Shown: positions 15,089-49,680 of the stretch, in pieces
Numbering within the stretch: position 1 is the first letter of the stretch
Layout of the letters: each line of letters opens with the position of its first letter
Assembly (NCBI RefSeq): GCF_009847015.1
Contig: NZ_WVEM01000003.1
Coordinates: forward strand, 62,001-126,000
DNA: 64,000 nt
From: Sunxiuqinia indica
GTDB lineage: Bacteria; Bacteroidota; Bacteroidia; Bacteroidales; Prolixibacteraceae
Reading direction: 5' to 3'
Program-made: the position numbers and the translations under genes
Notes under the pieces: model-generated
Databases searched by the model: none
What the model saw: only the letters and a program-made list of their open reading frames with translations
What the model was told of the DNA's origin: nothing

Positions 15089-16969
15089 CTAATCTCGGTT
15101 TCTGTTTTTATCACTTAGCCTTCTTACCACAAAATTTTTATAGATTGCCGCACTCACACACTTGTGACGCAAGCCAATTGGCCCTTCAAAAATTTCAGGG
15201 TGATTTTTATAATTCCAAATGTATAATGCACTTTGCTCATCATTAACTACTTTCATATATAATTTGTACCCTTTCTTAATAATTGTAATATGGTGCCTAA
15301 CACCTGTATCAAAAAATCCGGTATTATAAGCTGCCCCTAATTCGGTACCTTCTAACTTTTGATTCAAATCGGGGCGATAACGACGCGCCCGGATATAGTC
15401 GCCTTCTTTTGTGAAAGCAGCATAACTAATATGCAAAGTATTCATATTGTTGTAATAAACTGGCATAGCAGGAAACTCCCTCAAATTTATCCATTCTTGG
15501 ATGTTCTTACCATATTCTCCTTTTCCGCTTCCGGTTGCCTCTATGTATATGATATTGACTGACCTGTCTCTGTCATCAATCCGAATATAATCGTAATCAA
15601 TCATCAGATCTCCTGAAAAAGATTGTTTAGTCCAGAGAACAATATCATTTGCACTTATTTTTGGTTTTGGCCCAGTATAAAGTGCCATACCATTTTCACT
15701 GTTTTCCACGTAGCCAACCTTTCCGTCGAGCAACCATTTATCTTTCCAATCGCCGGTGCAATTGTCGGAAAACGCAATTTCCCAGTCTAGCAGACACAGC
15801 TCATCGAATTGCTTTTTGTCATCGTCACTGGCGATACAACTATCTTCCAATTTCTCATCCAGTACATTTTCTCCAGGAGCCCATTTGGGTTGCCACACTT
15901 TATATTCTTTAAAAATTTCCTTGGGATCATCATCGTACCAACCATAACCAGCTCGCCGTTCCCTGCCAATTTCTGTAAGAGAATATCTTTTTATCCCATC
16001 ACGGTCACAAAAAAATGGTCTGTTATCTTTCAACTCATAAAAACGTGCCCACAAAGTAGGAGCGCCTTTATCTTTCACTATTCTTTTTTCCCTTTTACCC
16101 TCTGCATTATTATATCTCTCAATCCGTATCCCTTCAATTTTTACTTTGTCAAACCAGGTCACAGCAGCTTGTACTGCATTTACGACTTCAAGAGAAGGAT
16201 GATCAATGCCAATTAATATCAAAACGATACCAACAGATTCATTTCCGCTTAATGAGGGTAATTCATAGGTTCTTGCCTTAGCAGGGAGCAAAGTATGCTC
16301 GTCGTATTGTGCACACCAAGCCGTCAGCTCTCCATTTTGTTTGTACTGCGTTTTCAGAATCAAATCGATTCCTTTATCAAAAGCTTTTCTTGCATTACTA
16401 ATTGTTGTGTCATCTAACTCAATCGAAAAACTACCATCATTTTCTGCAATTGATTTCATCACACTCATGACGTTCACCATGGCATTGTCATTGAATGTAA
16501 TATGAGTGGAATAATCCCCTTCTTCAAGTGGATAAAACTGCGGCCATCCGCCATTTTCATACTGTGCTTCAAACAAGTAATTGATTCCCTTTAGAAATGC
16601 GTCTTTATAGCGTGGCCCTTTTGTTTTATGATACACTTTTGAAAGGAAAATCAACTCATTTACTGTAGCTCCATTATCTATTGTGGCAGTGCCCTTCCCA
16701 AATTGCTTTAGTTTTTGCAATCCTTCCTTTTCGTCCTTAGATAAAACCATGTGCATTGGTTTATTCTTAGGCCAACCACCAACATCGCATTGATATAATA
16801 ATACGTTTTCAGCTACACGAACAGCCTCTTCGGAACCATACCATTCTTCATCCATTCCATATACTACTTCTTTCCATTGAAGCCCACTAGTGCATTCTTG
16901 TGCATTTATTTTCAAACTCAAATAAAAGCACAACAAGAAAAGGTAGACATAAGCACAATACTTATTCAT
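15089..16969 (-). CDS. Pectate lyase PL10 fused to a DUF1961-like lectin-fold domain
   Basis: The 626-residue protein has a signal peptide (to about residue 23) and a PL10 (alpha/alpha)3-barrel catalytic domain to about residue 370. PL10 marks are CDVGGWPKNKP, ATVNELIFLSKVY, ENGGWPQFYP and ITFNDNAMVNVM. The remaining about 240 residues (from LLDWEIAFSDN) form a separate beta-rich domain of the DUF1961 type, whose concanavalin-like fold suggests sugar binding; that part is recognised with less certainty. PL10 cleaves polygalacturonate by beta-elimination. The gene is first among the enzyme genes, after an inverted repeat that separates it from the glycan-binding protein gene. Confidence 0.88.
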   Translation of the reverse strand: MNKYCAYVYLFLLCFYLSLKINAQECTSGLQWKEVVYGMDEEWYGSEEAVRVAENVLLYQCDVGGWPKNKPMHMVLSKDEKEGLQKLKQFGKGTATIDNGATVNELIFLSKVYHKTKGPRYKDAFLKGINYLFEAQYENGGWPQFYPLEEGDYSTHITFNDNAMVNVMSVMKSIAENDGSFSIELDDTTISNARKAFDKGIDLILKTQYKQNGELTAWCAQYDEHTLLPAKARTYELPSLSGNESVGIVLILIGIDHPSLEVVNAVQAAVTWFDKVKIEGIRIERYNNAEGKREKRIVKDKGAPTLWARFYELKDNRPFFCDRDGIKRYSLTEIGRERRAGYGWYDDDPKEIFKEYKVWQPKWAPGENVLDEKLEDSCIASDDDKKQFDELCLLDWEIAFSDNCTGDWKDKWLLDGKVGYVENSENGMALYTGPKPKISANDIVLWTKQSFSGDLMIDYDYIRIDDRDRSVNIIYIEATGSGKGEYGKNIQEWINLREFPAMPVYYNNMNTLHISYAAFTKEGDYIRARRYRPDLNQKLEGTELGAAYNTGFFDTGVRHHITIIKKGYKLYMKVVNDEQSALYIWNYKNHPEIFEGPIGLRHKCVSAAIYKNFVVRRLSDKNRNRD

Positions 16970-19993: not shown

Positions 19994-22900
19994 TTAAAAA
20001 TTTACGTTTACACCAAACTGAACGGTCATAAAGCCAGGCCCATCATTAGTTCCTTTGTCACCAAACTCAGGATCATGCCCCTGAAAATCAGTAATCAATA
20101 TGGGATTGGTTACGTTTGCATATATCCTTAGGCGAGACATATTTACTCTTTGAACAAATTGTTTGGAGAAAGTATATCCAAAAGTTATATTTTGTACCCT
20201 TGTATATGAACAATCTTTATAATTTTGCAATTGTGCCCCTTTTCTTCCCCAAAAATCATCATTAGTTGCATATTTGGGGCTAGGGGCATCATTTGAAGGA
20301 TTGGTTATGGTCCAATAGTTATGTACAACTGTATTTCTGTTTGTGTAAATCAAGTCATTAAAAAACCTACTTTTTTTAGTAATTCCCTGTTCTGTGTAAA
20401 CAGACATGGAAAAATCAAAGTTTTTATACATTAATTGAGTATACAGACTTCCTGTCCAATCAGGAATTGGTTTTCCGATAACTGTCCGATCATATTGTGC
20501 TTCAATTTTCCCATCGGGCACACCTTCAGGTCCACTTATGTCCCTAATTTTAATTTCACCTGGCACTCTTCCCCACTTTGCAGCTTCTTCTACCTCATCC
20601 AATTGCCAAACGCCTATCATATCATAGTTATAATAAACATCCACTGGCTGACCGATAAATAAACCGTTTACAACATCATCAACCTTCCCTAAGTTGGTCT
20701 CAACAATTTCATTTTTATTGGTTGAAAAAACAAACGATGTTTCCCATTTAATATTCTGTGTTTGAATATTAATAGTCCGTAATGAAACTTCAATCCCTTT
20801 ATTTCTAACAGAGCCGATATTATCAGTCATCTCATCCCATCCCATTGGAACAGGTAATTTGCGTTTCATTAACAAATCTTTCGATAGCTTTGTGTATAAA
20901 TCAACTGTTCCTGAAACCCTGCCTTTAAATAACCCAAAATCCAATCCAAAGTCCACTTCTTCAGTTCTTTCCCAAGTTAAAGCGTTATTAGCTATTCCAG
21001 AAGGTCCAATTCCATTGGAGACTATACCCCCAAAGTCATAATAATACAGGGAATTGGCACTAATAGAGGATTGAAATGCATTAATATTATTATTACCTGT
21101 AAAACCATAACTTAATCTAGCTTTAAGCATCGATACCACAGGAATATTCTGCATGAAAGGCTCTTGCTCAACTCTCCAAGCCACTGCTGTGGATGGGAAA
21201 GCAGCCCATTTATGCCCCTCAGCTAATTTTGAAGATCCATCCCATCTGGCAGAAAGTGTAAGTAGGTATTTGTTTGCATAATCGTAGTTTAGACGCCCCA
21301 TAAATGACGTCAACCTGTTCATGGTATAGGAACTTTCGGTGCTTGTTCTTTCACTGGCAATTCCCATATTATAAAAAGAAGTATTTTGAGGTAAATCTTT
21401 AACTTCAGCACGATAGTCCTCTTGTTGAAAATCGTATACACTAAAAAGGACTGTTCCCTGTATAGTATGGTCTCCAAACGACTTTTTAGTATTTACTTGG
21501 TTATCCCAGGTAAAATTGATTCGGTTTCGATTTAAAATACTCGCAGTTGTATTTTCCTGCAGACCACCTGCCGACTCTGAGTACTGGCCACCCCATGATG
21601 CTTCCCTGATCCATTTAAAACGGGGTAAAAATTCGGTGCGTGCGCTTAACCATTTATAAGGTCGGTAGTTGAAAAATACTTTGCCTAATAAATCAATTGA
21701 ACGTCCGTTGGAATTCGAATATCTCTGATCTAGAATCGGGTTCATTGAGCCTGTAACGATAGTTGCAGGTGATATTGTGAGTCCATCAACCTCATAAAGC
21801 CAACCCGTTGGATCATTAGCCAAAAATATTGGTGGCATACGATATAAATTCATGATACTTTTCCCACCTCCAACTTCAGTCTCCTTTAATCCTGTACGAA
21901 TTAAACCGCCAGCTTCCCATTTCTCATTGAATTTATGTTTTAGGTCAATACTAAAGGTATATTTATCCATAAAATCCTTTTCAATAAAGCCCTTTTCTTT
22001 TTGATAACCAGCCGTCAGACTATAAGAAGTATTTCCTGATTTACCATTCAATGAGAGGTAATGGTTCTGCCTATAGCCATTTTCTAAAAAATTTTTCTCC
22101 CAGTTATAAGTTTCCCCGGCTGCAATTCGACGCTCTATCTCCCGATCCCACTCATCGGATGAAACATATCTGTTCTCATCAGAATCTCCAAATACATCTC
22201 CGCTAAATGGATCCAAACTATTTCCCTGGGCTGCTGCAATCCTATAGTTCAACCACTGCTCGGCATTCATCATCGGTGCCGTATGAGCTGGTGTTTTAAT
22301 TCCGTAATAACCCTTATAAGAAATTGATATTTTCTCATTTTCAACTCCTGCCCCCTTTGTGGTAATTAAAACTACACCATTTGAACCTCTTGAACCATAA
22401 ATAGCTGTCGAAGAGGCATCTTTAAGGACATCCATCTGAGTAATATCGTTTGGATTAAGAAAGTCTATGTTATCCACGATTGATCCATCTACAACATAGA
22501 GTGGTGAGCCACCTGAGATCGAATTCTGACCTCTAATAACGATATTGAATCCAACGTCTGCTCTCCCTGATGACCTTGAAATGTTTACTCCCGCCAACTG
22601 TCCTTGAAGTGCTTCCAACGCCTCAGTGCTACCTCGCGTCGCAATCTGCTCAGAAGCAACACTCCCTATAGAACCCGTTAAATCTTTCTTTTTTACTGTT
22701 CCATAACCAATAGCAATCACTTCTTCCAATCCTATGGCATCTTCAGTCATAATGACATCAATTGATGTCTTTCCATCTACAGGAATCTCCTGAGTCTTCA
22801 TCCCAACGAACGAAAAGACCAAAATAGAATTGGCTGGAACATCTAAAACGGAATACTGCCCATCGGTATTCGTAATTGTACCGTTGGTTGTACCTTTCAA

Positions 22901-23344
22901 GATTACTGTTACACCAGGAAGGGGTAAGCCTAAAGAATCTAAAACCTTGCCCGTAACGGCTATTTTAGTCTGTTGTGTTTCCAAGCGATTTTCCGACAAC
23001 ACTATCTGCCTCCCAAGAACTTCGTATTTAAGGTTTGTCCCTTTGAATAAGTTATCTAAGATTTCAAAGATATTTTCATTCAGAAAGTCTACAGATACTT
23101 TTTTATCAACATCAATCTTTTCGTTGTAGAAAAACCTGAATTTACTTTGATTTTCAATATTCCCAAGAACATCCTCAATTGAAGAGTTATTCATCACGAC
23201 AGTCAACTTAGTATCTTGCGAATAACCTTCATTAGCAAAAGCTCCCAGCAAAGAAATACATAACAAAAAAATTGTCAGTTTCATTTTTCTAATAATTTGG
23301 TAATACAATGGCTGTAAACCACGATTACTTCGTTTTTTTTTCAT
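19994..23344 (-). CDS. SusC/RagA-family TonB-dependent transporter with STN domain (pectin PUL)
   Basis: The 1116-residue protein has, in order, a short basic N-terminal extension, a signal sequence from the internal Met (MKLTIFLLCISLLGAF), an STN domain (about residues 45-115), a carboxypeptidase-regulatory-like Ig domain (about 128-200), a plug (ending GSRGSNGVVLITTKG) and a 22-strand barrel. The STN domain contacts the FecR anti-sigma factor encoded upstream, so substrate import triggers sigma release and PUL induction. The start codon coincides with a TAnnTTTG box on the opposite strand (23344-23351), suggesting an antisense promoter. The leader to fecR is 107 bases and contains a hairpin. 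Confidence 0.96.
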   Translation of the reverse strand: MKKKRSNRGLQPLYYQIIRKMKLTIFLLCISLLGAFANEGYSQDTKLTVVMNNSSIEDVLGNIENQSKFRFFYNEKIDVDKKVSVDFLNENIFEILDNLFKGTNLKYEVLGRQIVLSENRLETQQTKIAVTGKVLDSLGLPLPGVTVILKGTTNGTITNTDGQYSVLDVPANSILVFSFVGMKTQEIPVDGKTSIDVIMTEDAIGLEEVIAIGYGTVKKKDLTGSIGSVASEQIATRGSTEALEALQGQLAGVNISRSSGRADVGFNIVIRGQNSISGGSPLYVVDGSIVDNIDFLNPNDITQMDVLKDASSTAIYGSRGSNGVVLITTKGAGVENEKISISYKGYYGIKTPAHTAPMMNAEQWLNYRIAAAQGNSLDPFSGDVFGDSDENRYVSSDEWDREIERRIAAGETYNWEKNFLENGYRQNHYLSLNGKSGNTSYSLTAGYQKEKGFIEKDFMDKYTFSIDLKHKFNEKWEAGGLIRTGLKETEVGGGKSIMNLYRMPPIFLANDPTGWLYEVDGLTISPATIVTGSMNPILDQRYSNSNGRSIDLLGKVFFNYRPYKWLSARTEFLPRFKWIREASWGGQYSESAGGLQENTTASILNRNRINFTWDNQVNTKKSFGDHTIQGTVLFSVYDFQQEDYRAEVKDLPQNTSFYNMGIASERTSTESSYTMNRLTSFMGRLNYDYANKYLLTLSARWDGSSKLAEGHKWAAFPSTAVAWRVEQEPFMQNIPVVSMLKARLSYGFTGNNNINAFQSSISANSLYYYDFGGIVSNGIGPSGIANNALTWERTEEVDFGLDFGLFKGRVSGTVDLYTKLSKDLLMKRKLPVPMGWDEMTDNIGSVRNKGIEVSLRTINIQTQNIKWETSFVFSTNKNEIVETNLGKVDDVVNGLFIGQPVDVYYNYDMIGVWQLDEVEEAAKWGRVPGEIKIRDISGPEGVPDGKIEAQYDRTVIGKPIPDWTGSLYTQLMYKNFDFSMSVYTEQGITKKSRFFNDLIYTNRNTVVHNYWTITNPSNDAPSPKYATNDDFWGRKGAQLQNYKDCSYTRVQNITFGYTFSKQFVQRVNMSRLRIYANVTNPILITDFQGHDPEFGDKGTNDGPGFMTVQFGVNVNF

Positions 23345-23356
23345 AGTTTTGAAATT

Positions 23357-23433
23357 GGTTTAATGAGTAATTTATTATTAAACTATTATTCATCGGAAGG
23401 GGAAAACCGCTACTTTTCTCCTTCCTTATTTTA
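23357..23433 (+). ncRNA. Predicted antisense RNA over the susC leader (pectin PUL)
   Basis: On the plus strand, antisense to the PUL, TAGTTTTG at 23344-23351 matches the Bacteroidota -7 box and overlaps the susC ATG. About 45 bases later a stem of GGAAGGGGAAAA (23395-23406) and TTTTCTCCTTCC (23414-23425), with one G.U pair and a 7-base loop, is followed by TTATTTTA, which looks like an intrinsic terminator. A weaker 7-bp stem GTTTAAT/ATTAAAC lies between. A clear -33 TTTG was not found. The implied transcript is about 75-80 nt. The same arrangement occurs at the other two PULs in this window and resembles DonS of B. fragilis. Ends are estimates. Confidence 0.45.
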
Positions 23434-25745: not shown

Positions 25746-27185
25746 CTAATCTTCTACAAAAGGAAAAGTATCAACAGGAACCCTTGCCGTGCGTAGTAAT
25801 TCTTGCATCTCTTTCACAATTTTCAGATGTTGATCTGCAACATTATTCTTTTCTCCAATATCGGTGGATAAGTCATAGAGTTCTACTGTTCGTTTTTGGG
25901 GATCAAGCACATTATAGCTAACGTATTTCCAATTGCCTCTACGAATGGCCTGCCGGCCATCCAGTTCATGAAATTCCCAATACAGGTGATCGTGTTGCTT
26001 TTGTCCATCTTTTCCAAGCAAAGTTGGCAGAAAAGAAATTCCCTGGATATCTTGAGGAGTTTCAGCACCTACTAGTTCAGCGCATGTTGGCATAACATCC
26101 CAAAAGGCTGAAATCAGGTCGGTTGTACTGCCTGCACTTATCTTGCCTGGCCAGCATGCAATCATCGGCTCTCGGATTCCTCCTTCATAAAGATCCCGTT
26201 TATATCCTTTCAACGGTCCATTACTATCAAAATAATCAGGGTCAGCCCCTCCTTCAATATGCGGACCGTTGTCAGATGTAAAAATAACCAACGTGCTTTT
26301 ATCCAGCCCCAGTTCTTTTAACTTGTCCATTAGTTCTCCCACTTGCTTATCAAACAATGTAACCATGGCTGCAAAAGCGGCATGAGGCTCCTGTTGAGAA
26401 CCGTAAGCGCCCAACCGAAATTTTTCGTCACCAAACTCGGCTCCAGTAAATGGATGTTCCGGTGGAAATTTGCCCTTGAATGGAGCCATTTTCTCTTTCG
26501 GCAAAAGCAATTCTGCATGGGGAATTGTACTGGCATAATACAAAAAGAAGGGATGGTTCCTATTTCTTTCCACAAATTTTAACACACTATCTTGAATCAT
26601 ATCTGCGGAATACTCTCCTATTTTATCTCCACTATTCCCATTCAACACCACCCTCTCATGATTATTCCACAGATGACCAGGATAGTAATTATGAGCAAGC
26701 GTTTGGCTATTATATCCATAAAACTGATCGAAGCCCTGATTGTTGGGATCACCTTCAGAGGTAATGAAACCCAACCCCCATTTGCCAAAGGCTCCGGTTG
26801 TATATCCCTTCTGTTTCAGCATTTCGGCCAGCGTGAATGATCCTGTGGACAGTGGAGCCTCGCCTTCAGGATCAACATGCATATTGCCCCGAATCGGTGT
26901 GTGCCCGGTATCCTGTCCTGTCAATAAAGAAGAGCGAGAAGGAGCACAAACTGAACAACCGGCGTAGTGCTGTGTAAAAAGCATGCCTTGACTTGCCAAA
27001 CGGTCAATATTGGGAGTTTGAAACTTCTGCTGCCCGTAACAGCTTAAATCACCGTAGCCCAAATCATCTGCCAGAATGTAGACAATATTAGGTTTAATTT
27101 CCTTTTTTCCTTCTTGTTTCGTTGATGTTTGGCAGGCCCAAAGAATCAATAACACTGCTAAACCTCCACAAATACTTCGTTTCAT
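25746..27185 (-). CDS. Sulfatase, family S1, lipoprotein (second PUL)
   Basis: Starting at MKRSICGGLAVLLILWACQ gives 479 residues with a lipobox ending at Cys18; the earlier ATG (27203) adds six residues before the signal and is less likely. Motifs are NIVYILADDLGYGDLSCYG, CAPSR (formylglycine Cys80 in this numbering), FGKWGLG and FTSDNGPH. The final RVPVDTFPF region is a C-terminal sulfatase subdomain. It is the only catalytic gene in this PUL, so the glycan taken up by the SusC/D pair here is probably sulfated, for example an algal or animal polysaccharide; that is inference. A hairpin separates it from susD. Confidence 0.94.
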   Translation of the reverse strand: MKRSICGGLAVLLILWACQTSTKQEGKKEIKPNIVYILADDLGYGDLSCYGQQKFQTPNIDRLASQGMLFTQHYAGCSVCAPSRSSLLTGQDTGHTPIRGNMHVDPEGEAPLSTGSFTLAEMLKQKGYTTGAFGKWGLGFITSEGDPNNQGFDQFYGYNSQTLAHNYYPGHLWNNHERVVLNGNSGDKIGEYSADMIQDSVLKFVERNRNHPFFLYYASTIPHAELLLPKEKMAPFKGKFPPEHPFTGAEFGDEKFRLGAYGSQQEPHAAFAAMVTLFDKQVGELMDKLKELGLDKSTLVIFTSDNGPHIEGGADPDYFDSNGPLKGYKRDLYEGGIREPMIACWPGKISAGSTTDLISAFWDVMPTCAELVGAETPQDIQGISFLPTLLGKDGQKQHDHLYWEFHELDGRQAIRRGNWKYVSYNVLDPQKRTVELYDLSTDIGEKNNVADQHLKIVKEMQELLRTARVPVDTFPFVED

Positions 27186-27224
27186 AATATTTGATTGAAT
27201 CATTAATTTAAAAGATAAAAAATA

Positions 27225-27332: not shown

Positions 27333-28826
27333 TTAGTACTTAGGATTTTGATCAAGTGCAGGATTTTCCTGACGCGTTATTTCCTGAATTGGCCACAAAT
27401 AATCCCTTTCCGGATTAAATGAACGTACCTGTACAACCTCACCCTTACTGTTTAAAACATTGGCATTCATCACTACTTCTGCGGTGTGCCATCTACGGAT
27501 ATCATTATAATAAAGTGCCTCACCGGCCAACTCAATTCTGCGCTCATGCCTTATCACTTCCCGCATCTGATCTTTTGTAAGACCTGGCGTTATATCCGGC
27601 ATCAAGGCACGGGAACGGATCTGATTCAAAGCATCATAAACTGAGGGATCGCTACCTGCAACTTCATTTGTTGCTTCTGCATACATCAACAATATATCAG
27701 CATAACGTAAGACAATAAAATTTAATTCTGAATTATTAATATTTGCCTGTACAACATCATCTTTATAAGAGGTATATTTCTTAAACCCGAATCCAGTGCT
27801 AAAGTATTTTGTCGGTGAAGCAATTCCACCTCTGAACATATAGCCGGGAATAACAACTGCCTTTTGCAACCTTGGATCCCTATTATCATAAGGATGTGCC
27901 GGATCAAATAATGGGGATTCTTCAGTGGTCAGGCCGTCAGACATTAGATAACTGTTTACAAGATCCAGGGTCGGAGCAACATTCAATTGTAGTTCAATTT
28001 GGATATCAAAGATCGTAGTATATTCCGGAACTTTATATTGTACGTCAAAAATAACCTCCTTATTTCCTTCATTTTCAACCTGAAATAGGCCTCTGTAATC
28101 TGAAAACAAACCATAGTATTTCAATTCCATAACTGCTTTGGCTGCCAGAGCTGCTTCAGACCACCTGCTTTCGTACAAAAGAACCCTCGCCTTCAATGCG
28201 AGTGCAGCCCCCTTTGTAGCTCGACCAATATCTGATCCTACATAAGAAACAGGAAGCACAGAAGCTGCATAATCAAGATCAGCCAATACCTGATCAATAA
28301 CCTCTTGTCGTGTATTACGCGGTAAATTAGCTTGTTTCTCAAAATCAGGAGATTCAAGAATTAAAGGTACACCTCCAAAATAATTTGCCAGGTTAAAATA
28401 AAACAAGCCACGAAGAAATGATGCCTCCCCCTTAATTCTAGTTTTCAATGCATCGTCCATTTGTACTCGTTCAATATTATCAAGAAGTATATTTACTCTT
28501 CCGATGCCCTTATAATTAGCATTCCATCGGTCCCTGAACACTGTTTCATTGCCCGCAGTATGAGCCCCCGTGGCCAACAATATATCCCCACTTTGATTAA
28601 AAGAATTTGGTGAGATATTTTCTTCCATTAAAGCGTTGTTTCCATATAGCTGATCCTCCCTTAAAACTGCATAACATCCATTAATGGAAGATACTGCCTG
28701 GCTTTCCGTTTGCCACCAGTTTGATTCATTATAATTATCAGTCGCTGTTGTTTCTAAAAAACTTTCGTTACACGAAACAATGAACAATAACAATACTGAA
28801 ATTCCTATATATAATATATTTTTCAT
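27333..28826 (-). CDS. SusD/RagB-family lipoprotein (second PUL)
   Basis: The 497-residue protein has a lipoprotein signal (LLFIVSC, Cys19). The SusD body has NYNESNWWQTESQAVSSINGCYAVL, then KGEASFLRGLFYFNLANYFGGVPL and, near the C-terminus, FIVLRYADILLMYAEATNEV and IRHERRIELAGEALYYNDIRRW. It is encoded 18 bases after its susC. It serves as the substrate-binding lid of that transporter. Substrate is unknown, but the lone sulfatase downstream hints at a sulfated glycan. Confidence 0.96.
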   Translation of the reverse strand: MKNILYIGISVLLLFIVSCNESFLETTATDNYNESNWWQTESQAVSSINGCYAVLREDQLYGNNALMEENISPNSFNQSGDILLATGAHTAGNETVFRDRWNANYKGIGRVNILLDNIERVQMDDALKTRIKGEASFLRGLFYFNLANYFGGVPLILESPDFEKQANLPRNTRQEVIDQVLADLDYAASVLPVSYVGSDIGRATKGAALALKARVLLYESRWSEAALAAKAVMELKYYGLFSDYRGLFQVENEGNKEVIFDVQYKVPEYTTIFDIQIELQLNVAPTLDLVNSYLMSDGLTTEESPLFDPAHPYDNRDPRLQKAVVIPGYMFRGGIASPTKYFSTGFGFKKYTSYKDDVVQANINNSELNFIVLRYADILLMYAEATNEVAGSDPSVYDALNQIRSRALMPDITPGLTKDQMREVIRHERRIELAGEALYYNDIRRWHTAEVVMNANVLNSKGEVVQVRSFNPERDYLWPIQEITRQENPALDQNPKY

Positions 28827-28844: not shown

Positions 28845-31800
28845 TTAAAACACCACATTGCATCCAACAGAGATGATTTTGGTAGTAGGGTAACTATATA
28901 TATCTTCCGCCAAAATATCCTTTTCCGGATCTGATAATTTAAATTTAGAGAAAGTTAAAAGATTTTGTGCGTTGGCATAAATTCTCAATTTGCTAAGGTG
29001 GATGTTCGTCAACAATTTCAACGGAATAGTATATCCTATCTGCAAATTCTTCAACCTTAAATAAGATGCGTCTTTTAACCAAAAAGTAGAATTTCTGGCA
29101 TTGATACGAGAACCTCTTTTTTGCAAGGACAATCGGGGATATTTAGCGTCAGGATTCTCACTGGTCCAACTATTGTCCAACTGGTCTTTGGTGAGTCCTG
29201 CCCCGTTATAAAGCGGCCACGAGACATTACTGGTCGGATAAATATCAATACCTTGTACCCCCTGAAAAAATGCACCTAAATCAAATCCTTTATAATCAAA
29301 ATTTAAATTGAAACTATAAGTATATTTAGGCGTTGACCGTCCCAGAACCCGCATGTCTTTGACATCAATTTTGTTATCGTTATTGAAATCGTGATAAATT
29401 ATATCACCCGGTCCAGTTGTCGGATCCTGGTAGGCATGATTTGAAACTTCTTCCTCAGACTGAAAAATACCATTGGCCTTGTACAAAAACCATGAGTTTA
29501 CTGGATAACCTTCTTCAATGACATTAATATTTCCCCAAAGGTTTGTTGTATATTGTACGTTACCATTCAAAAAATCTACGTTGTTATTAACGAATGCAAT
29601 ACTCCCACCAAAGTTATAATTCAGATCTCCAATTGAATTACGATGTGAAGCACTTATTTCAAAACCTTTATTAGACATTCCATAAAGGTTTGTAATAGGC
29701 CCGGTGAGATTCCCTACCTGACCGGGCACATTTATCCGGGCAAGTATGTCGGTCGTAACTTTATCAAATACGTCAATAGTAACTTCCAGCTTATTATCCC
29801 ACAAGCCTGCATCTAAACCGATATTTTTAATGGTTGTTGTTTCCCATGAAATATTCGGGTCTGACAAAGTAGTAACTGCACTTCCGGGAACCACAGCATC
29901 GTTGTAAGTGGCTCCCTGATTGATATCAATATTATTCAAGTAGCTATACAAAGGGATATCCTGGTTTCCCAACTGCCCCCAGGAAGCGCGTAACTTAAGG
30001 TTGCTAACAGCCTGTAGATTTTGCATAAATGATTCCTGATTGATCCGCCAACCAACCGAAAAAGAGGGGAAAAATCCCCATCGATTATTTTTTGCAAACC
30101 TGGATGAGCCATCGTAGCGGAAGTTAAACTCAAATAAATATTTATCTGAAAAACTATAGTTGGCTCTTCCAAAATAAGACATAAGCTTCGATTCGTATGA
30201 TGTGCCACCTACGTTTTTATTAATAGTACCAGCATTTAATTCCGGCAATTCGTTCCCTAAAAATCCTTCGATGTAAGCCATAAGGTTGGAATCGAAAAAA
30301 GATTCCCTACTAAAGCCAAACAGCAAATTAATATCGTGTTGATCCGAGATTCGTTTGTTCCATTTCAATGTTTGGAAATAGCTGGTATTCAACTCCCTGC
30401 TATTTGTTTCGCTGACACTACGAACATCTTTTCCATTTGGTCTGGCAACTGTGGGTGCTTTAGGGGTATAAAGAAATGTTTCTGGTGAAAAAGTATGCTC
30501 GTTGTTGTCTGATTTATTGACAGCAAAAGTGGCTTTGTATTTTATGTCAAGCGGGAATGTGTATTCAGCATAAATGTTGACCATTGCATGTTGATCTAAA
30601 TTTTTCTTGCCACCTTCTAAAGCTCTTGCTACTGGATGTCTAAAAACATTGTGCCCAGGCGTAACTAGCCAGGTATCACCATAGTGTCCATCAGCAAGGA
30701 TGTTGGGATGAATTGGAAGAGCTCGGGCAATAGCTCCTATTGCTGAATCGTCATTACCACCTATCCCTTTATATGGCCCGTTTTTTTCCCAATATGAACC
30801 ATTAATGATAATACCGAACTCAAATTTGTCTGACGGTTTAAAGATTACATTGGAATTCAGAGAATATTTCTTTGCGTCAGTCGCCATCAAAACCCCAGTC
30901 TGATCCATATATCCCACTGACATTGAAAATGTTACCTCGTCGCTCCCACCTGATAAACGAAAAAAATGATCCTGCATCGGCGCGACAGAAAACATAATAT
31001 CGTACCAATCGGTATTGGGATATAAATCCGAATCTGTACCATTCCTGTATTCTTCAATCTGCGTATCTGAATAGGGTTTAGTTTGGTTTTCATTAACGGA
31101 AGCCTGATTCCTGGCAAGCATGTAATCAACAGAGTTAGTTACCATATCGGGTAAGTAAGTTGCTCTTTGCCATCCAAAATAACTATTCAGTTCTGCCTTA
31201 AGTTTTCCACTCTTCCCCTTCTTTGTTGTGATAAGTATTACTCCATTGGCAGCTCTATTTCCGTAAATTGATGCAGAAGCAGCATCTTTTAAAACAGAAA
31301 TACTCTCAATATCATTAGAATTGACATCCTTCATATTATACTCAATACCATCTACCAACACCAATGGATCATTATTATTTAAAGTGCCAATTCCCCTAAT
31401 TCTTATAGTTGCATTGTCTGCACCCGGTTCACCTCCCGCTTGATTTACATATAATCCATTAACCCCCTGGAGTGCCTGTGTCGAGTTTGTCAAAGGCCTG
31501 CTTTCAAGGAAATCCGAATTTACGGAGGATATTGATCCTGTTAAGTTTACCTTTTTCTGAGTACCGTAACCAACTGCAACAACTTCCTCAATGCCAACAG
31601 TGCTTTCTTGTAAAACAATGTTGACAGTGGTTCTGCCAGCAATATCAATGTCTTGGGTTCTCATGCCTACAAATGAGAATTGCAAAATTGAATTTTCCAG
31701 AATATTAGAGAGTGAATAATTCCCTTCACCATCGGTAATTGTACCGTTTGTGGTGCCTTTAACGACAACGGTAACACCGGGGAGAGGAGAACCAGAAGAG

Positions 31801-32228
31801 TCTGTGACATATCCTGAAATGCTTTTTTGTTGCACCAATCCGACTCCTCCCTTTGTTCCAACTGAAAGGATGACCATACGGTCGCTTATGGTATACTTAA
31901 CATCTGTTCCTTGAAATATACCATTCAATATTTTAGTAATTGATTGACTTTCATCACATATCGATACTTTTCGATCCAAATCAAGATATTCTGAACTAAA
32001 TGCAAATCGAAATTCACTTTGATCCTCAATTGCTCCTAATATTTCTTTTACAGTTGCATCCTTATAATTCAGATTGAACTTATTGCTTTGGCTAAAAACA
32101 CTTGCCCCCGCAGAAAACAAACTAAATAAAAGAATTAGTAAAGATAGTTTCATGACAACAAGGATTTTTCGCATCTGATACCAGATGCCCGGAGCCAATA
32201 AGCTCCTTGTTTTACAATCTTTTTTCAT
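28845..32228 (-). CDS. SusC/RagA-family TonB-dependent transporter with STN domain (second PUL)
   Basis: The 1127-residue protein has a basic extension (MKKDCKTRSLLAPGIWYQ), an internal signal (MKLSLLILLFSLFSAGASVF), an STN domain (about residues 48-120), an Ig-like CarboxypepD-reg domain (SISGYVTDSSGSPLPGVTVV), a plug (IYGNRAANGVILITTKKG) and a barrel ending in an aromatic Phe. The STN domain implies signalling to the FecR protein encoded 92 bases upstream. The ATG overlaps an exact TAnnTTTG box on the other strand. It should import the glycan captured by the SusD partner. Confidence 0.96.
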   Translation of the reverse strand: MKKDCKTRSLLAPGIWYQMRKILVVMKLSLLILLFSLFSAGASVFSQSNKFNLNYKDATVKEILGAIEDQSEFRFAFSSEYLDLDRKVSICDESQSITKILNGIFQGTDVKYTISDRMVILSVGTKGGVGLVQQKSISGYVTDSSGSPLPGVTVVVKGTTNGTITDGEGNYSLSNILENSILQFSFVGMRTQDIDIAGRTTVNIVLQESTVGIEEVVAVGYGTQKKVNLTGSISSVNSDFLESRPLTNSTQALQGVNGLYVNQAGGEPGADNATIRIRGIGTLNNNDPLVLVDGIEYNMKDVNSNDIESISVLKDAASASIYGNRAANGVILITTKKGKSGKLKAELNSYFGWQRATYLPDMVTNSVDYMLARNQASVNENQTKPYSDTQIEEYRNGTDSDLYPNTDWYDIMFSVAPMQDHFFRLSGGSDEVTFSMSVGYMDQTGVLMATDAKKYSLNSNVIFKPSDKFEFGIIINGSYWEKNGPYKGIGGNDDSAIGAIARALPIHPNILADGHYGDTWLVTPGHNVFRHPVARALEGGKKNLDQHAMVNIYAEYTFPLDIKYKATFAVNKSDNNEHTFSPETFLYTPKAPTVARPNGKDVRSVSETNSRELNTSYFQTLKWNKRISDQHDINLLFGFSRESFFDSNLMAYIEGFLGNELPELNAGTINKNVGGTSYESKLMSYFGRANYSFSDKYLFEFNFRYDGSSRFAKNNRWGFFPSFSVGWRINQESFMQNLQAVSNLKLRASWGQLGNQDIPLYSYLNNIDINQGATYNDAVVPGSAVTTLSDPNISWETTTIKNIGLDAGLWDNKLEVTIDVFDKVTTDILARINVPGQVGNLTGPITNLYGMSNKGFEISASHRNSIGDLNYNFGGSIAFVNNNVDFLNGNVQYTTNLWGNINVIEEGYPVNSWFLYKANGIFQSEEEVSNHAYQDPTTGPGDIIYHDFNNDNKIDVKDMRVLGRSTPKYTYSFNLNFDYKGFDLGAFFQGVQGIDIYPTSNVSWPLYNGAGLTKDQLDNSWTSENPDAKYPRLSLQKRGSRINARNSTFWLKDASYLRLKNLQIGYTIPLKLLTNIHLSKLRIYANAQNLLTFSKFKLSDPEKDILAEDIYSYPTTKIISVGCNVVF

Positions 32229-32240
32229 AAATTTGTGTTT

Positions 32241-32322
32241 GTTATTTGATTAATGAATTCTCTTCATTTGACGTGAAGAGATTTATTGGCAGGAAGGTGT
32301 TGACGCACTTTCCTGTTTTTTT
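32241..32322 (+). ncRNA. Predicted antisense RNA over the susC leader (second PUL)
   Basis: This is the clearest of the three copies. On the plus strand, TTG (32207-32209), 18 bases, then TAAATTTG (32228-32235) fits a Bacteroidota promoter; the -7 box begins in the susC start codon. Downstream come a 7-bp hairpin TCTCTTC/GAAGAGA (32259-32281) and a strong terminator: CAGGAAGGTG (32290-32299), loop of 6, CACTTTCCTG (32306-32315), with one G.U pair, then seven T (32316-32322). The T run reaches the fecR stop codon. The predicted RNA is about 80 nt and complementary to the whole susC leader. On the sense strand the stem carries an A.C mismatch and lacks a T run, so it is built for the antisense direction. 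Confidence 0.6.
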
Positions 32323-33298
32323 ATTTTTCTTTCAAATAGACTATTCCTCCTTCCTGATAAGCTTTTGCATGGGTAATATCCAGCAACATTTTCAAGACAT
32401 CTTCGAAATCTTCATTTCTTATTGAAAATGTAACTTTGCAGTTTTTGAGACCATCCCCCACTTCAATGGGTTGATTATACCTTTTCTGTAACTTTTCTGC
32501 GACTTCATTCAGAGGTTGGTCATAAATATTAAAAATTCCATTCCGCCAAGCGGTATACTTCTTTGCGGTAACCCCAACAATTTTGTAATGATTGCTTTTC
32601 TTGTCGTATATCATGATTTCATTGGGCTGAAGGTGAACGAAAGCTTTACGACTATTAGCAGAAAACAACTCCACCGATCCTTCTTCAAGAACCACCTCAA
32701 CATCAGGGTCATTGGGATAGGATTCTGCCGAAAACTGGGTGCCTAAAACTCTAATATTAATTTCATCACAGCTTACTACAAAGGGGAGATTCCTATTTTT
32801 TGTTACTTCGAAATACCCTTGTCCGATCAACTCGACGTCTCGATTCCGAATTCCGAAATCATTGCTATATTTTAAACTGGAGCCAGAATTTAACCAAACC
32901 ATTGTTCCATCAGGGAGCATTGCTTTAGAAATTTGGCCTTTCTCAGCAAAAATGGTATTGAAGAATGTTGCATTTTCGATAAAGTTTCCCGACAGATACT
33001 GATAAATACCACCAATTGAAACCAGAAATAACAGAATCGCAGCATATTTGTATAAACGTTGACTAAAATTCAGGTTCCTAATTCTTTCATCATGTTCATT
33101 TATAATTCGGGTTTGGAACTTGTCCAGTTCTATTAATGTAGTATTAGGTAGGCTTTGGTCATTCAAACCGGCTTTCCATCCGCGTTTGATCTTCCTAAAT
33201 TTTATTCGGTTATTTTCATCTTCAATCCAACTGGTAAGACCAAGTATTTCTTTTTCCGATGCTCTCCCTTCCAAATATTTTATGATTTTTGCTTTCAT
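32321..33298 (-). CDS. FecR-family anti-sigma factor (second PUL)
   Basis: The 325-residue protein has a cytoplasmic N-terminal part, a membrane segment (YKYAAILLFLVSIGGIYQYL, about residues 87-106), the FecR domain (KAMLPDGTMVWLNSGSSLKY, VELIGQGYFEVTKN, VLGTQFSAESY) and a C-terminal DUF4974 module ending LDITHAKAYQEGGIVYL. It should restrain the sigma factor encoded upstream and be relieved by the STN domain of the neighbouring SusC. Its stop codon overlaps the T tract of the predicted antisense RNA terminator. Confidence 0.95.
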   Translation of the reverse strand: MKAKIIKYLEGRASEKEILGLTSWIEDENNRIKFRKIKRGWKAGLNDQSLPNTTLIELDKFQTRIINEHDERIRNLNFSQRLYKYAAILLFLVSIGGIYQYLSGNFIENATFFNTIFAEKGQISKAMLPDGTMVWLNSGSSLKYSNDFGIRNRDVELIGQGYFEVTKNRNLPFVVSCDEINIRVLGTQFSAESYPNDPDVEVVLEEGSVELFSANSRKAFVHLQPNEIMIYDKKSNHYKIVGVTAKKYTAWRNGIFNIYDQPLNEVAEKLQKRYNQPIEVGDGLKNCKVTFSIRNEDFEDVLKMLLDITHAKAYQEGGIVYLKEK

Positions 33299-33430: not shown

Positions 33431-34021
33431 TTATTGCAACAATAAGTGTAAAATTAATGAGAGAGCCACAAACTGTTTTTTCAGTTTCATTTTTAACTCA
33501 AGCTTCGCTTCATGCAGGTGTTTTTCAACTGTTTTTACTGAAATACCCAATTCTAAAGCAATCTCTTTTTGCTTCATTCCATTAATCTTATTTTTAATCA
33601 AGATTTCCCTCTTCCGATCCGGCAGTTCCTCAATAGCTTCTTTTAATGCAGCAACCAACTGTTCTTCCAAGGACAACTCCCTCTTCTCTATAAAATCAAG
33701 TTGGTATAGGTACTGTAGTTCATTTGACAACATTCCCTCCCGAAGGGAATCAAATGAGTACCGTGAATGTTCTTTCAGGTAATTCAAACATTTATTTCGA
33801 AGCGAAACAAACAACAAGCTTTCCACTGATTTATGAAAATCAATTTTTGCCCGATTTTGCCATAACTGGAAAAAACAGTCTTGCACCAAGTCCTCTGTAT
33901 CTTTTCTATTTTTCACAAATAACTGGCAATATCCAATTAAGCGTGGATGAGTTTGCTTGAACAATTCAGAAAATGAACGAGCATCACCTTCTTTTAACTT
34001 GTGATTCAATTGGTTTTCCAT
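33431..34021 (-). CDS. ECF sigma-70 factor (second PUL)
   Basis: Starting at MENQLNHKLKEGDARSFSEL gives 196 residues; the in-frame ATG at 34072 would add a hydrophobic 17-residue tail with no family counterpart. Region 2 reads FKQTHPRLIGYCQLFVKNRK, DTEDLVQDCFFQLWQNRA, and region 4 reads NKINGMKQKEIALELGISVK, TVEKHLHEAKLEL. It should activate the second PUL after release from FecR. It is the first gene of this PUL; upstream DNA to 35.2 kb is non-coding. Confidence 0.94.
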   Translation of the reverse strand: MENQLNHKLKEGDARSFSELFKQTHPRLIGYCQLFVKNRKDTEDLVQDCFFQLWQNRAKIDFHKSVESLLFVSLRNKCLNYLKEHSRYSFDSLREGMLSNELQYLYQLDFIEKRELSLEEQLVAALKEAIEELPDRKREILIKNKINGMKQKEIALELGISVKTVEKHLHEAKLELKMKLKKQFVALSLILHLLLQ

Positions 34022-35194
34022 AAAATGATCAGTGATGATCACAAAGAACCTAAATATACTGAAAATCTCCAACTATCATTTTCATTAGTTGACTGAAAAA
34101 GAATAGCTAAAATTAAATATTTACTAGAATAACAAACACTAACACTCTGATAATAAGAAGCCTTTTATCATTTCCTGTTGTCAGACGAAAAAACAGTAAA
34201 TTCCACGATCTCATTTTTTTAAAGACAAAAATATTAACACCTCTTTTTCGCGCTCTTCAACCAGATATTCTCATCCATCTATTGCCTATTATTAAACCAT
34301 AATCCAGAAGAATCAAAGACGGTTCAGATATATCATCCCGTACCTTCTTATATTTTTGTAATAACTTTATTAAAATGCAATAACTTTTTTGAATCCCTTT
34401 CATCCACAAAGATGAGATCGTAGTGTAACTTGAATAGGATTACTACCAACATTACACTTTGCCAATTTTATTGAAAATATTTCAGTTAAGCCAACTGCGT
34501 TTAAGGATGAGTGAATCATCAACGTAATCATGGCTAGCATTTAATTTATCTGTCCTACAATTTTGATGATTATTCTTATCCCTATTTTTTTTGAATTCAC
34601 GAGCTATACAGGTTTTATTGAAATCCTTAGTCCATACTCCGTCTTAGCGTATAGATTTTTTGAATTTTTATAACATTCCTATAAACATTGCTTTGTATAG
34701 TTTCCAACATCCAGCCAATAAAAAGCCTTTCTGAACCATCTTGCAAAGCTTAGACACCTGACACTCACCACGATAGATTTTTACTACTCATTGATTATCA
34801 ATACATTAAAACAATTTCCCAAAAGCAAAATTTGACTATTTAAACCTGCTTTTAAAGCAACATCATTTAAATCAATATCATCAAGCATTCCTATTATTTA
34901 TTGAAATTCTCCTTTATCTATGAGGGGTCATTATGCTCGTATTCAGAATAGTCTATCTTCTTCAAATACTCTTCAAGTGCGTTCATTTTCTTTTCTTCCT
35001 CATTTTCCATATTTTCCCTTTGAATTTTTCATCGCCGAACTTTATCCATTTTATTGTTCAACTATCAAAAATACTAATATTAAAAATATCTTTTATTGCA
35101 CGATATACCACATGCTGCCACCACTTTAATATTCAGTAGTTTCGCATAAAGCACATCCTACGTTCGCTTTTCAATCACTAAATAGCGAAGTAAT
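34022..35194. other. Long AT-rich region with decayed coding sequence
   Basis: No intact gene is supported over about 1.2 kb. On the minus strand short protein-like runs survive, such as MENEEEKKMNALEEYLKKID (about 34.97 kb) and MLDDIDLNDVALKAGLNSQI (about 34.88 kb), and LHYDLIFVDERDSKKLLHFN (about 34.4 kb), each broken by stops. I do not recognise their families. Given the coupling-protein remnant immediately to the right, this is probably a degraded piece of a conjugative element. The sigma promoter of the second PUL must lie at its left end. Confidence 0.5.
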
Positions 35195-36826: not shown

Positions 36827-38038
36827 TCATGCGTCTTTTTGAAGAATGTCAATAATCTTTTCCATATCCTTACTAATCTTCGAATCCACAATCCTAGCGT
36901 AAATCTGGGTGGTTTTGATAGACGTGTGACCCAGCATTTTTGAAACTGTTTCAATTGGTACTCCATTAGCCAATGTAACAGAAGTTGCAAAAGTATGCCT
37001 GGCTACATGCATGGACAGATTTTTTGTTATTCCGCAAATGTCAGCCAATTCTTTTAGGTATTCGTTCATTTTCTGGTTTGAGCGAATTGGAAGAAGTTTT
37101 CTCTCTGTGTTATTCTCGGAGTAATATTCATATTTCTTCAATATTTGTTTTGCTTCCGGTAACAATGGAACTCTAAATCGGTTTTCAGTTTTAGACCTAT
37201 CATCAATAATCCAATCATTACCATCGTCACCTTGATATATATTATCAAAACTTAGTCCCTCCAATTCGGCGTACGCCAATCCAGTATAGCAGGCAAAAAC
37301 AAAAATATCTCGAACAAGGCTTAATCGAAATGTCTTTAATGGCTTTTTCCTAAGTGTTTCAACCTCCCTGAGTGTTAAGTAATCCCGATTTGTTTTATTT
37401 CTGGTAGGAGTAAATATCTCATAAGGATTTTCGATATTAGATTTTAAAGCCAACGGATTTTTCAATGCTTTATTCAAGTGTTTATGGTAGGTGAGAACTG
37501 AATTCGGCTTTAAGTCATATTTTATCTTCAAATAAGTATCAAGAGAATAAATAAAATCCAAATTTACCATCGATACAGGTATCTCACTTCTTTTAAATTT
37601 CTGTAATACAAATTCACCAAGCCTATCCCGCGTAGTTTTGTAATGACTGTATGTACCCTTTGAATAATCCACTCCGACCTTGGATTCAACATCCCTGACC
37701 GTGTAATTGAAAATATCCATCAATCCGGTAGATTTTCGACGCCCGAGTACCTTATCTTTCAAATCTATAATAGTAAATTCGTCCATGGTTGAATCCAGCA
37801 CATTAAAAGCATCTTGGATCTTCGTCGCTAGTTTATCCAATCGCTTGTTTAGGGTCTTGCTTTCCTCATTTTTACCTTTTATCTGCTGTACTTTGTCATC
37901 CCAAAAATCAGGAATAATAAAAAGACCTGTAGATAATTCGAAGCGTTGGCCGTCCATGGTACACCGGACGTAAACCGGACATTTCCCGTCAGCGCGGGAT
38001 TTTGATCTCTTTAAAGAGAAGTTTACGGTAACTCTCAT
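36827..38038 (-). CDS. Tyrosine recombinase (integrase) of an integrative element
   Basis: The 403-residue protein has an arm-binding N-terminus (FSLKRSKSRADGKCPVYVRC, to about 90), a core-binding domain (about 105-200) and a catalytic domain. HVAR (H344, R347), LGHTS (H371) and the nucleophile Y380 in TTQIYARI are present. The usual first catalytic Arg in TGLR reads TGLAYAE (Ala255); loss of this Arg is also known in IntDOT of CTnDOT. It lies 282 bases from the 3' end of tRNA-Lys and reads away from it, the usual place for an element integrated in a tRNA gene. It appears intact. The remnant at 35846-35996 is a relative. Confidence 0.93.
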   Translation of the reverse strand: MRVTVNFSLKRSKSRADGKCPVYVRCTMDGQRFELSTGLFIIPDFWDDKVQQIKGKNEESKTLNKRLDKLATKIQDAFNVLDSTMDEFTIIDLKDKVLGRRKSTGLMDIFNYTVRDVESKVGVDYSKGTYSHYKTTRDRLGEFVLQKFKRSEIPVSMVNLDFIYSLDTYLKIKYDLKPNSVLTYHKHLNKALKNPLALKSNIENPYEIFTPTRNKTNRDYLTLREVETLRKKPLKTFRLSLVRDIFVFACYTGLAYAELEGLSFDNIYQGDDGNDWIIDDRSKTENRFRVPLLPEAKQILKKYEYYSENNTERKLLPIRSNQKMNEYLKELADICGITKNLSMHVARHTFATSVTLANGVPIETVSKMLGHTSIKTTQIYARIVDSKISKDMEKIIDILQKDA

Positions 38039-38266
38039 AACTCAACTCATTTTTGGTTAAAAAATGGTCTCGTTTCCATGCTTAAAACTAACCCCTTAGA
38101 GTCACATTTACAAGCATCAAAACGAAACAAAATATTTCAAAATGAATTGATTATCTGAAAACTACGTCGATTGCCGAGACCTTTTGGCAGTTTCTTCAGA
38201 TAGGTCTCGATATGGTCTCGTTTATTTTGCGATTTGGTGCATATTTTGGTGTCTGCCGCAAAATAA

Positions 38267-38299
38267 AAAAGCGCCTAAACCTATGATTTAAGCGCTTTT
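38267..38299 (-). terminator. Terminator of tRNA-Lys
   Basis: AAAAGCGC (38267-38274) and GCGCTTTT (38292-38299) form a stem, extended by CTAAA/TTTA pairing inside. Read on the minus strand it is followed by TTTATTTT, 21 bases beyond the tRNA CCA end. Confidence 0.8.
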
Positions 38300-38320
38300 A
38301 AGTCTTTTTGACTTCTTAAT

Positions 38321-38396
38321 TGGTGACTCAGCTGGGGTTCGAACCCAGGACCCCATCCTTAAAAGGGATGTGCTCTACCAGCTGAGCTACTGAGTC
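38321..38396 (-). tRNA. tRNA-Lys (anticodon TTT), CCA encoded
   Basis: On the minus strand the gene starts GACTCAG at 38396, with TAGCTCAGCTGGTAGAGCA as D arm, the anticodon stem CATCC-CTTTTAA-GGATG with anticodon TTT, the T arm GGTTCGAACC and the acceptor CTGAGTC followed by A73 and CCA (38321-38323). All stems pair. Its 3' end faces the integrase gene, so it is a probable attachment site. Confidence 0.97.
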
Positions 38397-49582: not shown

Positions 49583-49668
49583 ATAAAAAAGGGAAGATGC
49601 GGCTACATCTCCCCTTTAGGGTTCTCTTGAATAAACAATCTTCTAGTTAAAAATTGTAAAACTCAAAC
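49583..49668 (-). ncRNA. Predicted antisense RNA over the susC leader (third PUL)
   Basis: Read on the minus strand, TAATTTTA (complement of 49674-49681) overlaps the susC ATG and differs from TAnnTTTG only in the last base. A 5-bp ACAAT/ATTGT hairpin follows, then the stem AAAGGGGAGATG, loop of 6, CATCTTCCCTTT (complement of 49588-49617) with one G.U pair and a T6 tract running into AT-rich DNA. On the sense strand the same stem has an A.C mismatch. The predicted RNA is about 85 nt. The promoter match is weaker than at the second PUL; existence rests mainly on the threefold recurrence. Confidence 0.42.
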
Positions 49669-49680
49669 CATTGTAAAATT

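Follow-up and report, generated by a model that had tools for sequence, protein, structure and literature searches.

A predicted DonS-like antisense RNA opposite the susC leader of a sigma/anti-sigma PUL in Prolixibacteraceae

Antisense RNAs of Bacteroides PULs and the locus in the window

DonS and other cis-antisense RNAs associated with Bacteroides PULs go back, reportedly, to Cao et al. 2016, and the layout of the donS PUL comprises ECF sigma and anti-sigma genes. RNAs of the DonS family are described as 78-128 nt long and positioned opposite susC in B. fragilis and B. thetaiotaomicron (PMC7366714; PMC10994844). For B. fragilis, PMC9723704 cites 15 PULs with such RNAs, and PMC10994844 counts 32 of them in B. 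thetaiotaomicron. DonS represses its PUL by a mechanism given as unknown (PMC11697453), and antisense/PUL pairs of B. thetaiotaomicron display positive as well as negative correlations (PMC10994844). B. thetaiotaomicron also has the FopS/GibS sRNAs, of which FopS represses susC by pairing near the start codon; FopS is multicopy, has many targets and combines a single-stranded 5' seed with one terminator hairpin downstream of it (PMC11697453). In the transcriptome of Flavobacterium psychrophilum, antisense transcripts are described on 281 coding sequences, with none linked to a PUL in the text available from that source (PMC9723704). Among the matches listed in a literature search that covered few subscription journals, we found no report of PUL antisense RNAs outside Bacteroides and none of a hairpin in the susC coding region.

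The window, i.e. the whole 64,000-nucleotide stretch of DNA analyzed here, lies in contig C33 of a 5.25 Mb genome. It harbors a PUL whose genes lie on the minus strand, namely an ECF sigma factor gene (33431..34072, listed with a TTG start), a fecR anti-sigma factor gene (32321..33298), a susC homologue with CarbopepD_reg_2 and Plug domains and an STN domain below cut-off (28845..32228), which is the predicted target of the antisense RNA, a susD homologue (27333..28826) and, after susD, a sulfatase gene with Sulfatase and SGSH_C domains (25746..27203), while the antisense signals are on the plus strand. A first-pass annotation had proposed a DonS-like antisense RNA in the gap between fecR and susC, and its reading of the letters was accurate: the gap is 92 bases, with susC ending at 32228 and fecR starting at 32321, and the plus strand carries TTG at 32207-32209, 18 bases and then TAAATTTG at 32228-32235, whose first base is opposite the A of the susC ATG, followed by a first hairpin (32259-32281), a stem (32290-32315) and seven T (32316-32322), with one pair in the stem being G.U on the plus strand and A.C on the minus strand. 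The stem, of ten pairs, and its T run constitute a predicted intrinsic terminator (32290..32322, plus strand). By setting the RNA start 7 nt past the -7 box and letting the RNA stop with the final T of the run of seven, we infer both ends of a predicted antisense RNA of ~81 nt (32242..32322, plus strand), which would start ~14 nt and end ~94 nt upstream of the susC ATG; because its start lies upstream of the ATG, this RNA would be complementary to the susC leader and not to the start codon. The predicted fold is an 11-base tail followed by two hairpins, with the terminator stem 62-87 nt upstream of the ATG. A script that follows T-rich tails further gave a length of 91 nt here and a median of 81 nt (64-108) in 34 loci of the same genome. 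An Rfam scan of the window at gathering score had a tRNA as its sole match.

Two further examples are found in the window. The second comprises TTTTCATAGTTTTG at 23338-23351 and an antisense terminator stem at 23395-23425 (23338..23425, plus strand; L006), opposite the susC at 19994-23344; the third has an antisense terminator stem at ~49590-49614 (49590..49680, minus strand; L027), opposite the plus-strand susC at 49681-53148, with the last G of the box replaced by A. Elsewhere in the window, a tyrosine-type phage integrase gene with an adjoining tRNA-Lys gene (36827-38396) marks the possible edge of an integrated element, and a Pec_lyase pectate lyase gene (15089-16969) is part of a neighboring cluster.

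The predicted RNA resembles the DonS RNAs in being cis-antisense and opposite the susC homologue of a PUL (susC, susD, sulfatase), in the presence of ECF sigma and anti-sigma genes in that PUL (the box being found in 0/17 susC without fecR), and in its length, with ~81 nt, or 91 nt by script, falling within the 78-128 nt described in PMC7366714 and some loci of the same genome (64-108 nt) falling below it. It differs from them in belonging to Prolixibacteraceae and other non-Bacteroides genomes, where it is predicted from sequence, in having no conserved -33 element, and in frequency, with signals at 34/36 fecR-susC gaps here vs. the 15 PULs of B. fragilis and 32 RNAs of B. thetaiotaomicron in the sources given above. 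Unlike FopS, the predicted RNA is encoded in cis opposite its own target, is complementary to one leader and has two hairpins; the single-stranded 5' seed plus one terminator hairpin of FopS is not its architecture.

The antisense terminator and the strand under selection

On the plus strand, 32240-32322 folds with -31.7 kcal/mol (z -7.1; 0/200 shuffles as good), and at -19.5 kcal/mol (z -6.0) the opposite strand of the gap, too, is more stable than its shuffles. The strand therefore cannot be read from folding alone; it is given by the T run and the G.T/A.C asymmetry. Between 19000 and 34500 there are 20 terminator-like sites, compared with a mean of 9.8 (sd 3.0) in shuffles, and the first two of the 20 as tabulated are the two fecR-susC gaps of that segment, both antisense.

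For the genome-wide counts, FecR_C (PF16344) gave 52 matches, 40 in fecR-sized frames and 12 in longer frames (523-1152 aa), ten of which are susC-sized. Our own-genome set comprises the 36 of 40 fecR genes that are followed, at a distance of 60-200 bases, by an ORF of 150 aa or more, leaving out L030 (no next ORF), L033 and L041 (gaps of 21 and 11 bases) and L038 (gap of 383 bases). Judged by a strict criterion (hairpin dG <= -12 kcal/mol plus a T run), terminators are present on the antisense strand of 34/36 gaps, all except L005 and L040, and on the sense strand of 0/36, a locus count whose P-value, like that of the stem asymmetry below, treats related loci as independent. Dinucleotide shuffles of these gaps reached dG <= -12 in 15/216 cases; the loose threshold of dG <= -7 was passed by 100/216 shuffles, which is too many, and only strict counts are therefore used. 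Strict antisense terminators recur in 26/26 loci of the genus and 23/25 of the family, and among susC without a neighboring fecR, an antisense terminator with dG <= -12 lies within 200 bases upstream in 2/17.

The assertion that the structure is selected in the antisense direction is supported by the mismatches in the stems. A strand-neutral search, scoring G.T and A.C alike, found 30 stems over threshold in the own genome, 23 in the genus and 20 in the family, with 45, 25 and 25 G.T on the antisense strand against 1, 2 and 0 A.C, i.e. 95:3 for the three sets, compared with 478:253 in shuffled sequences of the same composition; there is also more T on the antisense side of the terminator stem. 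Each G.T gives the antisense RNA a G.U pair and leaves the mRNA with a mismatched A.C, which points to the antisense RNA as the molecule under selection. Five other terminator-like stems in the window lean to G.T as well (5:2 in 66 pairs), so on this small control the one-way terminator is not special to fecR-susC gaps. The covariation that had been suggested as a check is present between related loci, with 81 compensatory changes in antisense gap pairs vs. 40-56 in slid controls and 420 broken pairs vs. 1094-1200, counts that come from related loci and so are not independent events.

The expectation that the promoter boxes and the stem would be conserved in relatives held for the terminator stem and the -7 box and failed for the TTG at -33. 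Two orthologues, L043 of the same genus and L174 of UBA12447, retain the two hairpins of the antisense strand together with the box and the T run, with the stem of the first hairpin (32259..32281) kept and its loop differing; aligned to the window over the gap and susC start, they have 84% mean column identity, and the FecR of L043 is 49% identical. UBA12447, a Prolixibacteraceae MAG, was the closest of five named susC relatives from one scan (52% identity, residues 1-339), which makes it very probable that the genome of the window belongs to the Prolixibacteraceae. Loci from other genomes are the best-scoring listed matches of each search and not a random sample, with 75/83 kept (5 with gaps outside 50-260 bases, 3 without a next ORF); the order set kept 15/28 (4 without a next ORF, 9 with gaps out of range; L196 left out). 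In these samples strict terminators were antisense in 11/15 and sense in 4 loci of the order, antisense in 8/12 and sense in 4 of the class, and antisense in 2/12 and sense in 0 of other classes, and the class sample had no clear stem asymmetry (G.T:A.C of 5:3). Two Flavobacterium loci, L171 and L172, have an antisense terminator-like site (-12.0 and -14.3 kcal/mol) and, upstream, a gene whose C-terminus looks FecR-like on visual inspection. The antisense signals weaken away from the family, and the counts in the order, the class and other classes oppose a class-wide claim.

The box on the susC start codon and the hairpin within susC

The primary sigma promoter of Bacteroidetes has a -33 element, TTTG or TTG, and a -7 element, TAnnTTTG; by this yardstick, the -7 box of the predicted promoter is strongly conserved and the -33 element is not. 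Across the 87 loci of own genome, genus and family, position -7 before the susC ATG is C in 76%, positions -6, -5 and -4 are A in 92, 98 and 98% and position -1 is T in 97%, with -3 and -2 looser, and the antisense reading of this block is TAnnTTTG beginning on the start codon, as in TAAATTTG at 32228..32235. The box is strand-specific, since exact TAnnTTTG between -110 and +120 of the 87 loci occurs 80 times antisense and 5 times sense, and of the antisense copies 63 coincide precisely with the ATG while 7 are displaced from it by 6 bases. It is also tied to fecR-linked susC: [CT]AAAnnT-ATG is found in 33/36 loci of the own genome, 26/26 of the genus and 20/25 of the family and, farther out, in 9/15 of the order, 7/12 of the class and 0/12 of other classes, and counting by eye in the own genome gave [CT]AAAnnT before the ATG in 0/17 susC without a neighboring fecR. 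These controls are 17 of 56 TIGR04056 matches (four broken or low-scoring ones left out) and kept their first in-frame ATG; in 10/111 loci the susC start had been moved downstream, ahead of the box count, to an ATG with lysine codons after it, which does not affect the genome-wide count of the extended box TTTTCATANNTTTG. The latter has 35 matches in the genome (3 for a reversed control), 28 of them at fecR-linked susC starts, and occurs in the window 2 times vs. 0.07 expected, at two susC starts.

The other half of the promoter named in the first-pass annotation, the TTG at 32207..32209 (plus strand), does not stand and is probably there by chance. An antisense TTG with a 16-21 base spacer is present in 7/87 loci with no spacer peak, 70 loci corrected for box phase had no peak either, and the TTG is missing from both orthologues; being rare, unpeaked and absent from the orthologues, it is no evidence for a promoter, and we dropped it as a promoter element. 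With no -33 element conserved, the strength of the antisense promoter is uncertain. Another candidate, an ECF -35 in the terminator loop (sense GnAACA), was also rejected, as the tetramer-pair search gave mainly the A run and the two stem arms; this spaced search of the gaps yielded no separate promoter pair, and the sense promoter of susC was not found. The motif ATTAA recurs at about -23 before the ATG in the fecR-susC gaps of the 87 loci, being exactly there in 14, and TGCCTATG is present in 12 of the 87.

The coding region of fecR-linked susC holds a structure on the sense strand. In the window it is GGAGC-TTATTG-GCTCC at 32191..32206 (minus strand), or +22 to +37 if the A of the start codon counts as 0, and in fecR-linked susC mRNAs generally a hairpin falls within the first fifteen codons, at about +20 to +45, in a fixed place and made of unrelated sequences; in the two orthologues different sequences fold at the same place and the flanking codons are unchanged. 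From +15 to +52 the mean z is -2.5, with z below -1 in 79/87 loci, compared with 11 to 29 of 87 in six other windows of the same genes and 3/17 in susC without fecR. The antisense strand of this segment has z below -1 in 57/87, less than the sense strand, and the mismatch asymmetry favors sense (58 sense-G.U to 11; shuffled 935:675). Outside the family, z is below -1 in 7/15 loci of the order and 8/12 of the class (asymmetry 4:4). Covariation between related loci gave 49 compensatory cells vs. 32-54 in slid controls and 254 broken pairs vs. 351-470. The alignment of the three orthologues is too small to help, as it has 2 pairs with both members altered, a number not above that in its shuffles. 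What supports the coding hairpin is its folding and its G.U asymmetry rather than covariation. Separately, FecR-linked SusC proteins have an internal Met-Lys/Arg at about residue 22 in 32/36 sequences of the own genome, 26/26 of the genus, 17/25 of the family, 8/12 of the class, 0/12 of other classes and 2/17 controls without fecR. This position implies a leader of ~20 codons before what appears to be a usual signal peptide, and the conserved Met suggests either such a leader or a second start ahead of the signal peptide.

Competing readings and what the signals may mean

Judged by its sequence, the antisense RNA predicted here very probably corresponds to a real element of the genome, and the proposal of a DonS-like RNA has come through as the best reading, given the conserved stem and -7 box and the selection in the antisense direction. 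We think it probable that the plus strand encodes an ~81 nt cis-antisense RNA serving as a brake on the susC PUL, and it is by analogy with DonS that we infer repression of susC. Such an RNA would hold PUL expression down before release of the ECF sigma factor: leader RNA, scarce at that stage, would pair with the antisense RNA, the duplex either blocking ribosome loading or being cleaved, and sigma-driven mRNA in excess over the antisense RNA would then overcome the brake by titration. The G.U pairs may weaken the stem in the sense direction, sparing transcription into susC. One susC mRNA of B. thetaiotaomicron has a computed 5' end ~77 nt before the ATG (PMC11697453), and a leader of that length would be almost wholly covered by the predicted antisense RNA. 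Among the points against the main reading, the predicted RNA leaves the ATG uncovered, unlike a simple start-codon block, and the positive correlations described for B. thetaiotaomicron (PMC10994844) speak against plain repression. Both would suit the main rival, in which antisense transcription itself acts, by interfering with sense transcription in the gap or by tuning expression positively, and the antisense promoter indeed faces a gap that sense transcription must cross. We nevertheless hold this rival to be unlikely, as the gap stems stay paired between related loci whereas interference needs pairing only for the terminator.

The remaining readings assign the signals other tasks. The terminator lies antisense just before the fecR end, as would befit a mere insulator that stops stray antisense transcription from susC before it reaches fecR and sigma, but an insulator does not account for a strand-specific -7 box fixed on the start codon, with 28/35 genome-wide matches at such starts, for the narrow length range of the predicted RNAs, or for the 17 susC without fecR (box in 0/17, strict antisense terminator in 2/17), and we judge it quite improbable. 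That the CAAAnnT-ATG block might be a translation-initiation element or the target of a FopS-type trans-acting sRNA gains from the lack of a -33 element and from the FopS sRNAs of B. thetaiotaomicron, which bind susC close to its start codon (PMC11697453). The known positive determinants of translation in the phylum are A at -3, -6, -12 and -13 (PMC6847099), however, and T dominates at -3 to -1 in fecR-linked susC; because T is dominant where translation favors A at -3, a promoter explains the block better, as it does the TAnnTTTG placed 6 bases further upstream in 7 loci, which does not suit a fixed site, and the confinement of the block to fecR-linked susC in the own genome also counts against an initiation element or sRNA target, which we consider quite unlikely. 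Hairpins acting in the sense susC leader, as an attenuator or processing site with the antisense signals a by-product of complementarity, would be in keeping with the fold of the sense strand (z -6.0), yet with G.T:A.C at 95:3, a stem richer in T on its antisense side and sense terminators of dG <= -12 in 0/36 own gaps, this reading is largely refuted by the mismatch and terminator counts and has hardly any chance of being correct.

Returning to the antisense brake, PUL antisense RNAs are known so far, in the sources cited here, from two Bacteroides species, with one tested case of repression and no known mechanism. Here, predicted antisense signals accompany almost all susC genes with a linked anti-sigma gene in a distant family, and their strand bias suggests that selection acts on the antisense RNA. 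This would make antisense control a default part of the sigma/anti-sigma/susC layout and would provide dozens of parallel cases for mechanism tests, with the link to fecR and the coding hairpin as directly testable leads. We put forward, tentatively and at slightly less than even odds, that in much of the class Bacteroidia anti-sigma-linked susC may carry one leader cassette of ~140-170 bp, comprising a one-direction terminator, an antisense RNA with its promoter in the susC start codon and, between +20 and +45 and ahead of a second conserved Met, a hairpin on the sense strand. If so, silencing by antisense RNA would come as a rule with PULs that have sigma and anti-sigma genes, and the hairpin in the coding sequence, lying where the front of the initiating ribosome would be, would be a hitherto unreported element by which, jointly with the antisense RNA, susC translation is set or gated. 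As judged from the predicted signals, the antisense switch of Bacteroides looks like standard equipment in its distant relatives, and unusually pervasive there.
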